Assembly: GCA_030636485.1 (NCBI GenBank)
Contig: DAOVWV010000002.1
Coordinates: forward strand, 1 to 15,642
DNA from: Methyloprofundus sp.
GTDB taxonomy: Bacteria > Pseudomonadota > Gammaproteobacteria > Methylococcales > Methylomonadaceae
Direction: 5' to 3'
Length of the DNA stretch: 15,642 nt
A program made the translations under genes and the position numbers. Shown here piece by piece: positions 1 through 7,252 of the stretch. The notes beneath the pieces are model-generated. The model was not told the origin of the DNA. It saw only the letters and a list, made by a program, of their open reading frames with translations, and made no database searches. Position 1 is the stretch's first letter, and each line of letters opens with the position of its first letter.

Positions 1-1587
1 TAAATCTGGTTCAATATCAACTTGCAAACTAAATTCATCCACTGATTCTTTAGGCGTTTGCATCAGTTGTCCATGATATTCAAATGCCTTTAAATGTGCT
101 GTATTGCAATCATTACAAAAAACTAATTCATAAATAGGTGCACCACAGTCACATACTTCACGCTGTTGGCTATACACCATACCAAAACCCCAATGTCCCT
201 CTAATACAATCCCTGTTTTACAAGCGCAATTTGTATCTACACAACACCATAAACCATTAATCACTTGATGAAATAAATGCCCTCGCACAGGCAAAAAAGG
301 CTTGTCTTTATAGCTGACTGTCCCTGTACAAATATCTAACCATGCTAAAACCTGTTGCTGACTGATTTTAATATCTTGTTCTTTGGGAAATACTGCCTTA
401 CTTAGCTGGCTTAAGCTTTTAGGGATAGCATTATTACAGGTGATTTCTTCACGTATTTTCCGGCTGGTAGGATGATCAGCCAAGGCTCGATAACGGGCTT
501 TTGATATTTGACTATCCGCATCAATGGCGATTAAATCTTCTATTGGTGCACTTTGCTTATAACGATGTTTACGTTTTCCTAATTCGGGAACAATACGCTG
601 TCCACCAATGACCGTTACTTTATCTTTAGCTATCCCTGCTAAATCGGCTAAATAGTTTTGTAATGAGCTGTTATCTTTATCCCCTATGGTTGCTGAGGTT
701 GCGACAAAACGTACATCATCCGAACTCACCCCAAAGCCGTGCATTACTCGTCTTAATAATAAAGACAGTTCTGCCGCCTGTGAGCCAATATAGGTATGCG
801 CTTCATCTAAAATAATCCAGCGTAATTGCCCCTGTGATTTTTCTAAAATAGGCGCATCTACTTGTCTGACCAACATATATTCCAGCATGGTCGAATTAGT
901 GACAAGTAAAGGAGCAGGTTCAGAGCGCAATAACTCTCTGGATAAAATCTCATTAGGTATCCTGGATTGCTCTGAAGCTTTAACAGACTCTTCGGTGTTG
1001 CCATTGTATAAACAAAATCGCACATCCCCTTTAAAAGCACCTGTCCACGCGCGTAAACGGTCACGCTGACTATTAATCAAGGCATTTAGAGGGTAAATAA
1101 ATAAGGCTTGTACGCCAATTAATGGTTGCTGTGTTTGCTGATATTGCAGTACTAAATCATTTAACACAGGCACCATAAAACACTCTGTTTTACCCGAGCC
1201 TGTTCCACTGGTAATAACAATAGACTGAGGCTTGCTATTGGCTAATTTATACCATGCTTCATATTGATGTTTGTAGGGTTTCCAGTCTTTGCCAAATCGG
1301 TAGTCTTTTAAATCCGCAGGTGGCTTATCCATTGCATCCAGCAAAGAACGTGACAGTAAATGACCTGAAACAGCTAAAGCATCCATTGTTTTATCGTATT
1401 CTTCCCAGCCAAAAATCGCCTCAAAAACAGGATCGGCTAAAAAACTGGTTTCACTGCCTGTCGGTTGATTAAATTTATCCGATAAAAATTGCCTTAATTG
1501 TGGGTGACTAATGCCTAAAATACTGAGTGTTGCTTCTGCGGAGCGTTGTGAGAGTTGCTCAATAATCGCTTGGAAATACTTAGACAT
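1..1587 (-). CDS. druE: DEAH-box helicase, DruE-like, N-terminal part (runs off window)
   Basis: The frame is open for 529 codons from the start to the window edge, so the C-terminal part is missing; DruE proteins are usually about 1800-2100 residues. Superfamily 2 helicase motifs are plain: Walker A TSGTGSGKTE (residues 126-135), motif Ia YPLNAL (about 165-170), TNSTMLEYML (230-239), DEAH (261-264) and TSAT (297-300). A PVRGHLFHQ stretch near 433-441 and a cysteine cluster (C448, C449, C454, C456, C479, C481, C491, C494), possibly zinc-binding, follow the first RecA lobe; this layout is seen in DUF1998-type helicases. The ATG at 1587 is preferred over the in-frame ATG at 1593 because AAAGG lies six bases before it but directly abuts the other. 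Inference: ATP-driven translocase of a Druantia type III anti-phage system, acting with the DruH-like protein upstream. The helicase call is near certain; the DruE assignment rests mainly on the neighbour. Confidence 0.85.
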   Translation of the reverse strand, partial: MSKYFQAIIEQLSQRSAEATLSILGISHPQLRQFLSDKFNQPTGSETSFLADPVFEAIFGWEEYDKTMDALAVSGHLLSRSLLDAMDKPPADLKDYRFGKDWKPYKHQYEAWYKLANSKPQSIVITSGTGSGKTECFMVPVLNDLVLQYQQTQQPLIGVQALFIYPLNALINSQRDRLRAWTGAFKGDVRFCLYNGNTEESVKASEQSRIPNEILSRELLRSEPAPLLVTNSTMLEYMLVRQVDAPILEKSQGQLRWIILDEAHTYIGSQAAELSLLLRRVMHGFGVSSDDVRFVATSATIGDKDNSSLQNYLADLAGIAKDKVTVIGGQRIVPELGKRKHRYKQSAPIEDLIAIDADSQISKARYRALADHPTSRKIREEITCNNAIPKSLSQLSKAVFPKEQDIKISQQQVLAWLDICTGTVSYKDKPFLPVRGHLFHQVINGLWCCVDTNCACKTGIVLEGHWGFGMVYSQQREVCDCGAPIYELVFCNDCNTAHLKAFEYHGQLMQTPKESVDEFSLQVDIEPDL

Positions 1588-1620: not shown

Positions 1621-2037
1621 TTAATCAAACCAGTTTTCTAATGATAAATCGTTGAAATTTTGGAAGTCGCGGGTATTGCGGGTGACAAGTACTAAATCAT
1701 TACCTGCGGCAATCGCAGCAATTTGTGAATCAAGAAAAGGAGCTGTTTTTCCTAAGCCTTGCAAACGCGCCATTTCTTCACCATGCCAGATAGCTATACT
1801 ATCGGTATACGACAGTATAGGTAATTGGAAAACAACCTTGTCAATATAATGTAAAATTCGTCTCTGTTTAACTGACTCAGACAGTTGTCGCGCTCCCTTT
1901 ATTAATTCATACACAACAAAAACAGGTATTGCAATTTTATCGTGATAACGTTCAATATTATCTAATACCTTTGAATTAGGCAAGTCTTTTAATGGCTCGG
2001 AAATAACATTAGTATCTAGCAAATAAACTAAGCTCAT
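1621..2037 (-). CDS. vapC: PIN-domain toxin, VapC-like
   Basis: This 138-residue protein has the length and layout of a single-domain PIN ribonuclease. The acidic metal-binding residues are all visible: D8 in LLDTNVISE, E44 in YELIKG, D103 in FLDSQIAAIA and D124 in TRNTRDF. Family knowledge: VapC toxins are Mg2+-dependent endoribonucleases that cleave tRNA or rRNA and are held inactive by a cognate antitoxin. The start codon overlaps the stop of the antitoxin gene by four bases (ATGA), the usual coupled arrangement, with the antitoxin first. The active site looks intact, so the toxin is probably functional. The helicase gene begins 33 bases downstream, so the toxin lies inside what appears to be a Druantia operon. 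PIN assignment is very secure; the RNA target cannot be read from sequence. Confidence 0.95.
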   Translation of the reverse strand: MSLVYLLDTNVISEPLKDLPNSKVLDNIERYHDKIAIPVFVVYELIKGARQLSESVKQRRILHYIDKVVFQLPILSYTDSIAIWHGEEMARLQGLGKTAPFLDSQIAAIAAGNDLVLVTRNTRDFQNFNDLSLENWFD

Positions 2038-2288
2038 AGCTGAAAATCTCGCCCACTTTCTTGTTCCCTATCACGATCAAAAATAGCCGTATCAATGCCT
2101 AATGGGTTACCTTTTACCTCATTAAGAAACTCATGCAGTGCAATAGAAAAAGAAGAGTGATTTTTTAGCTCTGCTTTTTGTAACTTATTTTTTAAAAACA
2201 GACTGAAATCTAATATTTCTTGTTGCTTTTCAATCGGCAAGTTATGTACTGTCGATAATATATTTTCTTCAATTGTACTTATTTGCAT
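2034..2288 (-). CDS. VapB-like antitoxin (DUF2281-like)
   Basis: An 84-residue protein directly upstream of and overlapping the PIN toxin. The N-terminal part (about residues 5-35) contains a LPIEKQQEILDFSLFLK segment resembling DUF2281-type antitoxins, which are typically paired with PIN toxins. The C-terminal half ends in an acidic and arginine-rich tail (FDRDREQESGRDFQL), the kind of segment that wraps around the toxin in related complexes. No ribbon-helix-helix or AbrB fold is obvious to me, so its DNA-binding mode is unknown. Its ATG lies one base after the stop of the DruH-like gene, and the GGAG that would serve as its ribosome-binding site lies inside the end of that gene, so translation is likely coupled to it. 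Role inferred from position and the N-terminal motif. Confidence 0.85.
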   Translation of the reverse strand: MQISTIEENILSTVHNLPIEKQQEILDFSLFLKNKLQKAELKNHSSFSIALHEFLNEVKGNPLGIDTAIFDRDREQESGRDFQL

Positions 2289-2289
2289 T

Positions 2290-5200
2290 TTATGTTTCTC
2301 CCACTTGATTCACTTGCAATAGAATAATTTCATCGTCTATTTGCTGAATTTTAGTCTCATTGATCTTTTTCATATTAACCAATGTCTCACGTAATTGAGT
2401 AATCGTTTCTGGTTGTTGCGATAAATAGGCAAGTGAAAATAAAAAAGCCGTATTAAACCATTCCTCATCAAAGCTTTTAAGCTGCTTTAATTTAAAAATA
2501 TGTACAACATCTGCCGACCACTTTTTAGGGGACTCTGTTAAACAAAAATTGGCTAATACGATTGGTAGCATAAGTGTAGGTAAGTGATGCTCTGATACTT
2601 CACTTATATTCAATAGTTGTTGAGATGACTTGTCCATATCATGCCAGTACCTATTCAGCTCATTTTTCAAAATTGTTAACCACTGATTATCTGCTTGTCG
2701 CCTATCAAGTTCATGTTGGGCTTTATCAAGTGGAGGAATCACACAGATATTTAAAGCATCTGGTATCGTCATTAAGCTTAATTCCTGGTCAGGCACACCC
2801 AATAATGACCATTTTAATGCTCTTTTCACTATTCCCATTGACGCAGGTAAAAAATCCAAGTGGTTAATTCGTGATTCTAACAACTCTTTGACATAGCTGT
2901 CTTCCTCTCCTAATAAATCTTGCAAATAAAGTTGATATTGATTAAATACGATTAGCCAATCGGCTAAAGTAATCAGTTCCCAAAAAACGGGGAGCTCTAT
3001 GCTTAACTTATCAATAAAATTTTGATCCATTTGTAATACTGTTGCTGCCAATGCCTGATGGTTAGCGGTGATTAATGACCAAACATGAAAAGAATTTAGT
3101 GGTAAATGCGTTGTTTCTTGCGTGAGCGTTTTTAAATAAGTCCAGCCACTGTGATTAAAGTCAAAACACATCTGTGCTAATATTTTGTTGATTACTAATG
3201 CTCTTAGCTTAATCGGCTCTATCATCACTGCCGAATGCAATGTTGATATTTCAAGTGGGGTTAAGTTAGGCGTAGTTGCCTCGTTTTCACCTATCCATAG
3301 AATGGGCCTAAAGGATATTTCTGAGCTGGGGCAAGGATAAATTAACCAAGGCTCAGCCACTCGTTTTTCGGGACAAAAAAACCAGCTTCCTACCTGTGTA
3401 TTTTCACTATACTTCTCTTCGAGAACAATATGGCTTTCTTCTGGCTGGGATAAGCGCATGGCTTTTAATTTAACACCAGAAATTTGTGCCTGAGAGCATT
3501 GCGTACTATCGTTATAAGCTAGATCAACACTACCTTCCAGGGTATTTCTATCTAATGACATCTGGTATTGATAAATATTAATCATCATTAAAGGAAACCC
3601 ACCTTGGTAAATAGTCAACTTAATATAACTATCCAGATTATGAGTCACTGATAAAAGTGCTTTAATCCATTCCAGGTAATCAATCATGGCTATTGCAATC
3701 AAAGAGCCTTTATACTTGATATTGTGACGAAAATAGAGATCTTTGAGACTATCAATATGATCATCAACTAACGTTAACTCAATCTGTAGCTCTTTTTCCC
3801 GTGTGGGGTTTTCATTCAATAGATAAAGTCTAAATCCATATAAGTTATCTGCAAATAATGGGTAATTCTCAGGGAGCCGTTGCTCTTCGGGAGAGATCAA
3901 TAACCCACCTTGTGCCGGAAAAGGTATTGTTAATGTTAGCGTGTCTACCAACCCTTTCCAACGCAAGTTTAAACGAACAAATGAAGGAGGAATATCATCA
4001 GCAAATAGCTCAAGCTGAATCGTTTCGCCTATCTTACTAATATTATGCCGAATAGCCGTTTCACAGGTAAGTTCAGCACCTTTCACATGTTCTAGGTAAA
4101 TACTTCCATTAACTGAATTGTTCCTTTGGGGTTTTAAGCGGATTAAGAATTTTTCTGGTAATAAAACACATTTTTTACGAAACTTAATACTGCCATCCCT
4201 TTCCAGATAACGTATTTCATAAATGCCTTGCTCTGTTTTATTTAATGGCTTCCAGGCCTCCGATGAATGAAGTCGCTTTGCAACTAACGCTGTTATAGGA
4301 ATCTCTTGAAGCACATCCGTTTCAGTATTCAGACATTTGAGTTTAGGTAAACCCATATAAAGCGCCTGTGGAAGACTGATAAAGGGTAGTCGCACACCCT
4401 CTAAATAATAATATTCTGCTGAGCGGGCTTGCCCTGTTCTAATCGTATAGGTGGTATCACTGTTAGCTATTAAACAAATAATACCACTGGCTTCAATCAG
4501 TTTTTTTTGTTCTATTATTGTTATAATAGTTTGGTTTTCTGCCTCACACCTCAAGCTTTCAGGATAAAGAATTCTAACTTGCTTTGCGCGCGTTGAAACA
4601 CTGGCTGTACCTTCTAACACCCATTGCTCATCTTGCCAACTAAAGACCCAGGGTACTTCATTATCTAGGTTTTCAGCTCCGATCAAAGGAATTTCTTTAA
4701 TTATCTCCGAAAGATGTTTAAAACGGATCACGTGAGATAAAGTGGCCTTATCAGGTGCAATAGCATACTTTAAGCATGGCATTCTTAAACAGGGGGTGTC
4801 TTTATTTGTTTTTAAAGCATAGCCAAGTGAGGTAATGTGTTTATTATCACAAATGATTTCCACTTCTAATTTTAAAGGAATGCTTTCCTCAGAAATACCT
4901 GAAAAAATGGTTTTTAATGCGATAAAACGCTCAAACTCAAGCATCATTTCTAAATGATATTGATGGCTTAGAAAACGATGAACGGTAAATGCTTTACTTT
5001 TAATATCACGGGCTGCTGCCGCTGTTGTAATCATTTCTGATAACAGCTTAGAGCTTACTTCATTATTTATGGGGAGAGGAAACTGTTCCTGCCAGCCTTG
5101 TACATGCTGGTTAAGGTATTCAATCGGGTTGGTTTTTTCATGGAGTTGATGATTGATTTTAAGATCCACAACCACATCCAGCATTTCACCTAAAATGGAA

Positions 5201-5787
5201 TAAATTTCTTCATTACGGAATGTTTGTGGAAAATAACTTGCATATTCTCCAACAATTTCTGTTGCTGTTACACCACTGGACTTAAACTTTATATATTTAG
5301 GAATCGCTTGCTTAAAAATTCTCCCCAACCAACCGCCATTGGTTCCTGTATTAGTTAATTGTTTTAGAGGCAAGCCACCTTCAATTGCAATACTTCCTAA
5401 ATAACGTCTACGTTCATTAACTAAACGTAAATTCCTGCGCCAATAAGATAGCCCTTTTTCAACTAAAAGATTACGTTGCGAGGTATTTAATTCCCTAACA
5501 TCAGCCCCAAAAGATGCAAAAATATTTCCCCATTTCCAGGAACTCCCATCATATTCACGCCGCCACCATTCTGCTGCATATAATACAAAAGCGGCATCCC
5601 AAAGCTTAAGCCCCTTAAAAATATGTTGCACACCCAAACTAGCAGATAATTTAAGGGTTTGTTTTAAGGATTCAAACTCATCATCTGTAACACGGTATTG
5701 ATATAAAGGTTTCGTCTCTTGGCAAACATCCTCATATGATAAGCCTCTTTTCTCTAAAAATTGTTCTATCCACTGGTTTGCTTGCAT
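2290..5787 (-). CDS. druH: DruH-like protein of the STY4851/ECs_5259 (YjiT) family, Druantia type III
   Basis: A 1165-residue protein with no enzymatic motif, signal peptide or membrane segment that I can recognise. The N-terminal 160 residues are the most family-like: a YRVTDDEFESL stretch (31-41), an aromatic-rich block LWDAAFVLYAAEWWRR (62-77) followed by WKWGNIFASFG, and IEGGLPLKQL then NGGWLGRIF (135-158). These resemble my recollection of the STY4851/YjiT family, whose members sit beside large helicases in defence islands. In the published Druantia type III system (DruH + DruE) DruH has about this length and unknown function. The start at 5787 is supported by AAAGGA seven bases upstream. 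A plausible promoter lies at 5833-5862. It is the first gene of the accessory operon, followed after one base by the antitoxin. Family assignment is from memory of sequence features, without a profile search. Confidence 0.75.
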   Translation of the reverse strand: MQANQWIEQFLEKRGLSYEDVCQETKPLYQYRVTDDEFESLKQTLKLSASLGVQHIFKGLKLWDAAFVLYAAEWWRREYDGSSWKWGNIFASFGADVRELNTSQRNLLVEKGLSYWRRNLRLVNERRRYLGSIAIEGGLPLKQLTNTGTNGGWLGRIFKQAIPKYIKFKSSGVTATEIVGEYASYFPQTFRNEEIYSILGEMLDVVVDLKINHQLHEKTNPIEYLNQHVQGWQEQFPLPINNEVSSKLLSEMITTAAAARDIKSKAFTVHRFLSHQYHLEMMLEFERFIALKTIFSGISEESIPLKLEVEIICDNKHITSLGYALKTNKDTPCLRMPCLKYAIAPDKATLSHVIRFKHLSEIIKEIPLIGAENLDNEVPWVFSWQDEQWVLEGTASVSTRAKQVRILYPESLRCEAENQTIITIIEQKKLIEASGIICLIANSDTTYTIRTGQARSAEYYYLEGVRLPFISLPQALYMGLPKLKCLNTETDVLQEIPITALVAKRLHSSEAWKPLNKTEQGIYEIRYLERDGSIKFRKKCVLLPEKFLIRLKPQRNNSVNGSIYLEHVKGAELTCETAIRHNISKIGETIQLELFADDIPPSFVRLNLRWKGLVDTLTLTIPFPAQGGLLISPEEQRLPENYPLFADNLYGFRLYLLNENPTREKELQIELTLVDDHIDSLKDLYFRHNIKYKGSLIAIAMIDYLEWIKALLSVTHNLDSYIKLTIYQGGFPLMMINIYQYQMSLDRNTLEGSVDLAYNDSTQCSQAQISGVKLKAMRLSQPEESHIVLEEKYSENTQVGSWFFCPEKRVAEPWLIYPCPSSEISFRPILWIGENEATTPNLTPLEISTLHSAVMIEPIKLRALVINKILAQMCFDFNHSGWTYLKTLTQETTHLPLNSFHVWSLITANHQALAATVLQMDQNFIDKLSIELPVFWELITLADWLIVFNQYQLYLQDLLGEEDSYVKELLESRINHLDFLPASMGIVKRALKWSLLGVPDQELSLMTIPDALNICVIPPLDKAQHELDRRQADNQWLTILKNELNRYWHDMDKSSQQLLNISEVSEHHLPTLMLPIVLANFCLTESPKKWSADVVHIFKLKQLKSFDEEWFNTAFLFSLAYLSQQPETITQLRETLVNMKKINETKIQQIDDEIILLQVNQVGET

Positions 5788-5832: not shown

Positions 5833-5862
5833 ATTATAACTTAGCAGGCTTTTCCTTGTGAG
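5833..5862 (-). promoter_or_regulatory. Candidate sigma-70 promoter of the defence operon
   Basis: On the minus strand a perfect TATAAT (5838-5833) is preceded, after 18 bases, by CTCACA (5862-5857), a 4-of-6 match to TTGACA. Transcription would start about 40 bases before the druH start codon. A second TATAAT at 5820-5815 has no good -35 partner. The stretch lies between the hairpin after pmbA and the first defence gene, where a promoter is expected. Predicted from sequence only. Confidence 0.5.
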
Positions 5863-5879: not shown

Positions 5880-5905
5880 GGGTGGGCAGAAAGGATTGCC
5901 CACCC
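5880..5905 (-). terminator. Hairpin after pmbA, probable terminator and dispersed-repeat-like element
   Basis: GGGTGGGCA (5880-5888) and TGCCCACCC (5897-5905) form a perfect 9-base-pair stem with an 8-base loop. On the minus strand it begins 16 bases past the pmbA stop and is followed by ATTTTATT, a weak U-tract. It would end the pmbA transcript before the druH promoter. The GGGTGGGC stem with flanking CCTAC also resembles a palindrome repeated in several gammaproteobacterial genomes, so it may be a repeat reused as a terminator. Confidence 0.65.
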
Positions 5906-5920
5906 TACCTAGCCGCTACC

Positions 5921-7252
5921 CTACTCCCCCGCAATCGCCATCTCTTCAATCAAGATAGACCCCGAACGAATATTGCCTCGGTAATCAATATCATTACCCA
6001 CCGCCAGAATATGCTGGAACATGTCTTTTAAATTCCCTGCAATGGTAATTTCCTGTACCGGATATTGGACTACACCCTGCTCCACCCAGAAACCGGCTGC
6101 ACCGCGTGAGTAATCTCCAGTGACCGGATTGACACCCTGCCCCATTAACTCAGTGACTAATAGGCCGGTGTCCATGTTCTTAAGCAGTTGCTCAAGATTT
6201 TTGTCGCCTGCACTAATACATAAATTACGTACACCACCAGCATGGCCGGTGGTTTGCATACCCAGTTTACGCGCGGAGTAACTACTCAATAGATAAGTAT
6301 TGAGTATGCCATCGGTGACAATTTTATTCGCTTGGGTTGCTACGCCCTCTGCATCGTAGAGTGCACTGCCGAGTGCGCCTAAAAGATGGGGTTGCTCATA
6401 GAGATTGATAAAATCAGGAAAAACCTGTGTCTCTAGGCTATCTAATAAGAAAGATGATTTACGATATAGACTCCCCCCACTGATGGCTCCAAGAAAAGAA
6501 CCAATAAGACCACTGGCAATTTCAGCGGAATATAAAACCGGGCATTTACGTGAACTTAAACTGCGCGCCCCTAGCCGTTGCACTGTTCTTTGGGCTGCTT
6601 TTTCGCCTATTAACTCAAAACTATCCAGATTTTTCTGGTCACGGGCTACGCTGTACCAATAATCACGTTCCATATCACCATTGCGCTCACCAAGCACTGA
6701 ACAGCTAATTGAATGACGGGTTGATGCATAGCCATGTAAAAACCCCAGGCTATTACCATACACGCGAATACCTGAATAGCTATCGACCGATGCGCCTTCT
6801 GAGTTATTAATATCCGCATGATATTGACGCGCGGTATCTTCGCAGTTTATCGCAAGGTCAATGGCATCATCAGCACTGATGTCCCAGGGATGATATAAAT
6901 CCAGGTCTTTAAATTCTGTGGCAAGTCTGGCTGGATCGGGCAATCCGGCATATTGATCCTCACTGGCATAACGCGCGATACTGCAAGCAGCTGTCACTGT
7001 TTCCTTGATGGACTTGGCGGATAAGTCGGTACTGTTTGCCGAGCCTTTTTTCTGGCCAAAATAGACGCTGACTCCCAAACCTTGAGAGCAGTGGTGTTCT
7101 ATGGTCTCAACATCACCCAAACGAACATTGACGGATAGGCCATTATCGACACTCAGGCCTGCATCTGCATTGCTGGCACCCTGTTTTTTTGCTTCGTCTA
7201 GTAAGTCATTAATAATCGTTTCTAGGCGAATGAGTTCTTGTTCAGTTTGCAT
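5921..7252 (-). CDS. pmbA: PmbA/TldE, non-metal subunit of the TldD/TldE metalloprotease
   Basis: A 443-residue protein, close to the 450 of E. coli PmbA (TldE). It lacks the HExxxH motif, as expected for the E subunit, which pairs with TldD and helps shape the substrate channel. Visible family features are the N-terminal region around GASNADAGLSV (25-35), the glycine-rich SGLIGSFLGAISGGSLY segment in the middle and the C-terminal YSRGAAGFWVEQG with GNLKDM. Family knowledge: the TldD/TldE heterodimer is a cytoplasmic protease that degrades unfolded peptides and cleaves leaders of some modified peptides such as microcin B17; it also affects CcdA stability. It lies downstream of tldD but is separated from it by a 144-base spacer holding a REP-like palindrome, so it may have its own promoter. 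No strong ribosome-binding site precedes the ATG at 7252. It is the last housekeeping gene before the defence module. Confidence 0.97.
   Translation of the reverse strand: MQTEQELIRLETIINDLLDEAKKQGASNADAGLSVDNGLSVNVRLGDVETIEHHCSQGLGVSVYFGQKKGSANSTDLSAKSIKETVTAACSIARYASEDQYAGLPDPARLATEFKDLDLYHPWDISADDAIDLAINCEDTARQYHADINNSEGASVDSYSGIRVYGNSLGFLHGYASTRHSISCSVLGERNGDMERDYWYSVARDQKNLDSFELIGEKAAQRTVQRLGARSLSSRKCPVLYSAEIASGLIGSFLGAISGGSLYRKSSFLLDSLETQVFPDFINLYEQPHLLGALGSALYDAEGVATQANKIVTDGILNTYLLSSYSARKLGMQTTGHAGGVRNLCISAGDKNLEQLLKNMDTGLLVTELMGQGVNPVTGDYSRGAAGFWVEQGVVQYPVQEITIAGNLKDMFQHILAVGNDIDYRGNIRSGSILIEEMAIAGE

Follow-up and report, generated by a model that had tools for sequence, protein, structure and literature searches.

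Four different toxin-antitoxin (TA) modules occupy a single slot separating druH from druE in one clade of Druantia type III loci, an arrangement that is new as far as the open-licence literature searched shows. The window (the whole stretch of DNA analysed, a complete 15,642-base contig of a 2.1-Mb assembly that is 63% complete) carries one of them, a vapBC pair that is probably a mobile TA passenger, possibly stabilising the segment in which it lies, and not a component of Druantia, as judged from sequence comparison. The slot as a whole is best read as one into which exchangeable TA passengers have inserted repeatedly, passengers whose presence may make losing the segment costly.

The Druantia locus and its vapBC pair

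In the window, druH is followed by the gene of a VapB-like antitoxin, the gene of an intact PIN/VapC toxin, and druE, all in a single tight run on the minus strand (Table 1). The end of druH (2290) and the antitoxin ATG (2288) are a single base apart, the antitoxin and toxin genes overlap by ATGA (2034-2037), and the end of vapC (1621) lies 33 bases from the druE start at 1587, or 27 bases from an alternative ATG start at 1593; druE itself is truncated by the contig end. The first-pass annotation had described a complete TA pair at these coordinates between the two Druantia genes, with the one-base spacing, the ATGA overlap and 33 bases to the helicase gene, and had taken the four genes for an operon; each of these points holds, the last as an operon-like layout with tight same-strand junctions.

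Table 1. Features of the Druantia locus in the window
Feature	Position	Strand	Length	Basis
druH (Druantia type III DruH / YjiT family)	2290..5787	-	1165 aa	PADLOC PDLC00049, NF038336
VapB-like antitoxin	2034..2288	-	84 aa	weak NF050009 and DUF2281; precedes and overlaps vapC
VapC toxin, PIN domain	1621..2037	-	138 aa	PF01850; best solved relative 3tnd
druE (Druantia type III helicase), N-terminal part	1..1587	-	529 aa	PADLOC PDLC00037
sigma-70-like promoter candidate upstream of druH	5833..5862	-		consensus match 10/12
terminator-like hairpin between pmbA and the druH promoter candidate	5880..5905	-		9 pairs, 7 GC

The locus is assigned, by its two proteins, as a putative variant of Druantia III: DruH matches the PADLOC DruH3 model at 2.6e-170 and NF038336 at 4.2e-204 (680.6 bits, cut-off 150), and the N-terminal part of DruE, the remainder of which, where the C-terminal nuclease-like domains of a type 3 helicase would be expected, lies beyond the contig end, matches the PADLOC DruE3 model at 8.1e-237. 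As in known Druantia type III systems, both models score very strongly and druH precedes druE on one strand, but the genes of the known systems are adjacent (in Mycobacterium smegmatis, as stated in the part of PMC13316683 consulted, they overlap by 17 bp), whereas in the window a TA module of about 700 bases separates them (702 bases, two genes); direct adjacency is usual, yet the PADLOC models applied here do not demand it.

The toxin matches the PIN family PF01850 at 3e-10, above its cut-off, and falls below the cut-offs of the VapC model NF047863 (1.1e-19, 71.1 of 140 bits), PRK13725 (1.7e-12) and NF047959 (3.9e-6). Its closest relatives of solved structure are tRNA(fMet)-specific VapC proteins (3tnd, E 7.4e-11). 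The window VapC looks catalytically intact, since aligning ten PIN toxins shows no variation at D8, E44 or D103 and hardly any at D124. The antitoxin is weakly VapB-like (NF050009, 7.9e-4, 19.9 of 60 bits, below cut-off), with N-terminal helices weakly resembling DUF2281 (0.0035, below cut-off), and a search of solved structures found nothing related to it at E values up to 1; its predicted structure of four helices is of low confidence (mean pLDDT 59.8) and uninformative on a DNA-binding domain. The pair shares with tRNA(fMet)-specific VapBC a PIN toxin with conserved acidic residues and a small antitoxin directly ahead, coupled by an ATGA overlap, and relatives of both proteins are paired at two other loci (L167 and L172). 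It differs in the low VapC score (71 versus 140 bits), in the antitoxin, for which solved structures offer no counterpart, and in the single base upstream of vapB, which leaves no room for a promoter region of its own. The NCBIfam equivalog cut-offs for VapC and VapB, which neither protein reaches, are a threshold for naming and not a biological feature.

Upstream of druH, a housekeeping run on the minus strand (Maf, RNase G, YhdP, carbon-nitrogen hydrolase, TldD and PmbA) ends at 5921. Consensus scanning gives weak evidence here, since the scanned region holds 7 promoter-like sites versus 16.2 in shuffled sequences and 3 terminator-like sites versus 3.3 expected. One terminator-like site on the transcribed strand lies inside druH (2967-2952), and none was called on that strand from 2952 to the end of the scan at 1400. 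No Rfam family was found in the window at gathering scores. The one-base spacing, a GGGAG within druH and the ATGA coupling together suggest that vapBC is probably expressed from the druH promoter. In several relatives of the pair vapB is more widely spaced from the preceding gene (at least 90 bases at L167, L170, L174 and L175; about 21 at L169), so that in the window an upstream region belonging to the pair itself seems either to have been lost or never to have been present.

Junctions between druH and druE

Druantia loci were collected by searching for NF038336 in genomes of the same order (301 genomes, 31 matching), class (370, 13 matching) and phylum (397, 10 matching), and by searching species-representative contigs with an alignment of DruE N-termini, which contributed the best 80 of 529 confirmed loci and under-samples distant Druantia III. 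With a duplicate of the window excluded, 132 loci were entered, 130 with a DruH match and 114 with a DruE N-terminus; 113 junctions were measured (one locus, L080, lacks druH), and merging of seven identical pairs left 106 distinct junctions, 17 from the window's family and 89 from outside it. The gap is 100 bases or less in 101 of the 106, with a median of 8, in agreement with the first-pass annotation, which had held that the two genes are normally adjacent. Six further junctions, three of them from the window's family, are also tight. Of the five long junctions, four contain TA modules and one, from a member of the Rhodobacterales (L109), contains an antisense transposase pair that looks IS3-like by eye.

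DruE was found in 18 of the 237 genomes of the family, and TA inserts in 4 of its 20 measured junctions; none of the 89 distinct junctions outside the family holds a TA module, L109 with its transposase-like insert included. The family is called a methanotroph family here on the ground that the nearest named druH-druE loci, two from Methylobacter (L032 and L033), have junctions identical to those of two of its genomes (G131 and G128). Among the 60 of 238 matching Escherichia coli records that were listed, 54 contain a 2001-base junction probe essentially whole, one has a transposase insert and five are partial, and none of these 60 names a TA gene. In viral contigs, the DruE alignment found 17 relatives, and the junctions measured for the top two (L264 and L265) are both tight; no antitoxin relative was found there. 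Plasmids gave 21 matching records, with one junction measured and tight (L281); this record (NZ_CP134663.1), listed as a 4.9-Mb plasmid, is probably a mislabelled E. coli chromosome.

All four TA-bearing junctions belong to the window's family and hold four different modules, each co-directional with the operon and accommodated after the stop codon of druH and ahead of the start of druE. Besides that of the window, they span 887 bases (L009/L154), 750 bases (L019/L155) and 554 bases (L006/L156). The first of these consists of a 57-aa open reading frame (ORF), a VapB-like antitoxin (NF050009, 1.2e-7, below cut-off) and a PIN toxin; the second of an antitoxin-like ORF that matches no family, together with a PIN/VapC toxin; and the third of a toxin matching DUF4160 (1.1e-23) and DhiT (NF048015, 6.1e-25, 87.6 of 100 bits, below cut-off) with a partner matching DUF2442 (7.9e-16) and weakly DhiA. 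A common origin of the window and L155 vapBC pairs is unsupported, the L155 VapC being 35% identical to that of the window versus 57-60% for five relatives found elsewhere.

In a tree of the 36 DruE N-termini nearest the window, the four TA loci fall into one clade of 11 rows (support 100/98), two of them identical, so that 4 of its 10 distinct loci carry TA modules. The TA label requires three changes on this tree, two of them forced by well-supported branches, which could represent one gain and two losses. The sister loci L154 and L155 carry different modules; since modules differ within one clade, and even between sisters, what appears to recur is the position and not the module. The excess in the clade (4/10 versus 0/95 elsewhere, p = 4.4e-5) is for a clade chosen after the result was seen, within the family the contrast is 4/10 versus 0/10 (p = 0.09), and the clustering of the label is matched by many shuffled labellings (as low a value in 67 of 500). 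The survey of intervening TA pairs suggested in the first-pass annotation therefore had a divided outcome, in that the position recurs at four loci of one clade and the window's own vapBC was not found in the other sampled junctions (106 distinct). The same annotation had read the tight junctions as a settled arrangement, a conclusion that does not follow, as in the sample the insertion is private to the window locus and its related loci have either a different module or no module at all.

In two of the four TA loci druE is broken, with the TA reading frames open. At L156, DruE residues 1-335 and 1029-2084 are kept and an opposite-strand ORF of 709 aa lies between them; at L154 the frame changes near residue 935, possibly through a sequencing error. 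In the window and at L155, druE extends past the contig end. A broken druE next to open TA genes is easier to reconcile with a passenger, or with a module that safeguards its own DNA, than with an arm of a functioning system. The 709-aa ORF (L156:6878-9007) encodes a protein with a helix-turn-helix domain and lies beside the DhiT/DhiA-like pair.

Toxin-antitoxin pairs at other positions

PIN domains are common in the family: the 18 Druantia-bearing genomes contain 243 matches (13.5 each). Were these scattered uniformly, at an assumed 3,700 genes per genome, at least three in 20 junctions would be expected with p of about 5e-5. TA genes, however, tend to gather near defence genes. Type I restriction operons of the family, a second control, were sampled as 40 regions from the best hsdM matches (86 of 151 genomes match), 9 of which were not evaluable; candidate TA genes were recognised by eye from the ORFs no longer than 160 aa, with a Pfam scan of three loci. 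TA pairs lie inside 3 of the 31 evaluable operons: BrnT/BrnA and a HicA with a HicB-like gene at L249, a YafQ/ParE-like toxin (below cut-offs) at L252, and two antitoxin-PIN pairs, one with its toxin split, at L255. These operons resemble the Druantia slot in that large defence genes running in the same direction flank small TA pairs, and differ in belonging to another defence system and in containing BrnTA, HicA and a YafQ/ParE-like toxin besides PIN toxins.

Per operon, the slot (4/20) and the restriction operons (3/31) do not differ (p = 0.41), and if HEPN-like genes were counted too the latter would reach 6/31. Per junction, the slot is in excess (4/20 versus 4/107, p = 0.02), the 107 restriction junctions being those between any neighbours of at least 300 aa in the same run. 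By these counts TA modules seem more frequent in the slot than in the genome at large or at individual restriction junctions, and not clearly more frequent than is usual for defence operons in this TA-rich family. TA-like pairs were also seen by eye just outside hsdM at L200, L232 and L263 and were excluded from the counts. At L245, L246 and L248 a 138-aa gene directly follows hsdM; that of L245 matches PF08780 (nucleotidyltransferase substrate-binding), which we take to be HEPN-type, the other two are look-alikes by eye, and no nucleotidyltransferase partner was noticed.

Around Druantia itself, a TA-like pair lies within 1.5 kb upstream of druH in 2 of the 12 loci inspected among the 20 of the family, one with a PIN toxin (L014, 171-816; PF01850, 7e-17) and the other with a UPF0175 gene and a partner that was seen by eye and has no Pfam match (L007, 564-1281). 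Downstream of druE no such pair was seen in 7 family loci, the stretch viewed being shorter than 1 kb in two of them.

Relatives of the window VapC (E 1e-5) occur in 159 of the 237 genomes of the family. Within about 1.5 kb on either side of the ten closest (55-61% identity) neither DruH nor DruE was found; in two of their genomes (G227 and G256) Druantia lies on another contig, and in two of the ten (L173 and L176) the toxin gene is interrupted by a stop. The first-pass annotation had raised the possibility that the pair co-evolves with druH, and had named frequent occurrence elsewhere without a link to Druantia as evidence to the contrary; in the flanks of these ten relatives it is the latter that is seen, and co-evolution is unsupported in the sample. 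Closer relatives exist in metagenomes (83% and 68% for VapC, 82-93% for the antitoxin), and one of these could lie in a Druantia locus. An antitoxin 99% identical to that of the window is present on another contig, of 5,233 bases (P0005). In a set of 5.8 billion proteins the antitoxin has 15 relatives, all but two from contigs shorter than 10 kb, where the toxin has 2188.

Two antitoxin relatives are orphans with no toxin gene behind them, one of 63% identity (L283:1492-1773) and one of 53% (L284:1495-1746); the end of the former resembles a VapC C-terminus, as if the toxin had been deleted. At L167-L176, relatives of the window VapC are paired with antitoxins having either of two N-terminal halves and a similar C-terminal part, which suggests domain swapping among these antitoxins.

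Readings of the slot

That the vapBC pair is a passenger is argued by the presence of four different modules in the slot together with VapC relatives away from Druantia, by the TA pairs in restriction operons and upstream of druH, and by the open TA frames beside the broken druE genes of L156 and L154. In a Druantia III lineage belonging to a TA-rich methanotroph family, we infer, a mobile type II vapBC landed precisely at the junction, after the druH stop codon and ahead of the druE start, and in operon orientation. It would then probably be transcribed with druH and druE from the druH promoter, with vapB translated from the ribosome-binding-like GGGAG inside the last druH codons, vapC through the ATGA coupling and druE from its own AAAGG. 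VapB would neutralise VapC, by homology a tRNA endonuclease, as in an ordinary VapBC; were the segment lost, VapB would decay faster than VapC and growth would be arrested. The slot may nevertheless be a favoured one, given its per-junction excess over restriction operons and the excess of PIN domains over uniform scatter. Against a passenger stands the orientation of the modules, four of four being co-directional (1 in 16 by chance), which could reflect selection for co-expression.

The pair may instead be a guard, or addiction module, kept at the junction such that any deletion separating or removing druH and druE frees the toxin and the costly system is retained. Replaceable guards would be expected to look much like what is seen, namely four modules that share an exact position within a single DruE clade yet all differ, even between the sisters L154 and L155, and the per-junction excess points the same way; moreover, in M. 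smegmatis DruH kills when present on its own and DruE neutralises it (PMC13316683, section 2.2, the source seen in part), so that separation of the genes may already carry a cost. Yet TA modules are absent from 16 of the 20 family junctions and from all 89 distinct ones sampled outside the family, half of the TA loci have a broken druE, the per-operon rate does not differ from that of restriction operons (p = 0.41), and TA pairs also lie outside druH. A guard is thus possible, not favoured, and on balance unlikely. Slightly less credence is given to a docking slot, in which interchangeable TA modules are kept as guards or as abortive-infection arms and in which the position between the self-toxic DruH and DruE matters, and not the toxin.

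It is improbable that the pair serves as an abortive-infection arm, in which a phage that stops or degrades host transcription would deplete the antitoxin and VapC would halt translation in support of Druantia. TA-based abortive infection has general precedent, and the conserved VapC residues and the placement in the operon are compatible with it, but nothing seen couples the pair to DruH or DruE, the toxin family varies between relatives (PIN versus DUF4160/DhiT) and VapC proteins related to this one are encoded at sites away from Druantia. An assembly artefact joining two contigs at the junction, conceivable for a single contig of so incomplete an assembly, is very improbable in view of the precise gene boundaries, a GC content of vapBC (0.32-0.36) near that of druH (0.37) and below that of the six core genes (0.42-0.49), and the like arrangement in three other genomes, in one of them in two contigs.

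The open-licence literature searched yielded no TA pair between druH and druE, and no mention of Druantia together with VapC. In the portions of three papers that were consulted, "toxin" occurs once in PMC13192584, in the reference list, and three times in PMC12458937, in no case for a pair intervening between druH and druE, and is absent from PMC13316683; neither the first nor the last reports, in those portions, a TA module between the two genes. A known system open to comparison is CreTA, the CRISPR-regulated TA guard of CRISPR-Cas, which as described in the part of PMC9458426 consulted is likewise a TA module proposed to protect a defence locus, but is RNA-based, with a toxin repressed by the CRISPR effector; no regulatory link of DruH or DruE to the window VapBC was seen.

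If the slot is real, it constitutes a natural experiment in which four TA modules have been tried at one exact position of a defence operon, and whether TA modules stabilise defence loci or merely ride in them becomes directly testable. If it reflects accumulation of passengers, which is judged likelier, then tight junctions and recurrence alone are no proof that a TA module is part of a defence system.

On the partner proteins themselves, the consulted part of PMC13192584 (section 13) gives no stable DruH-DruE complex in the system of that study. The C-terminus of the window DruH (2290-2400) appears by eye to be about 35 residues longer than those of its relatives at L004, L005 and L154, and somewhat resembles the tails of L158 and L159.
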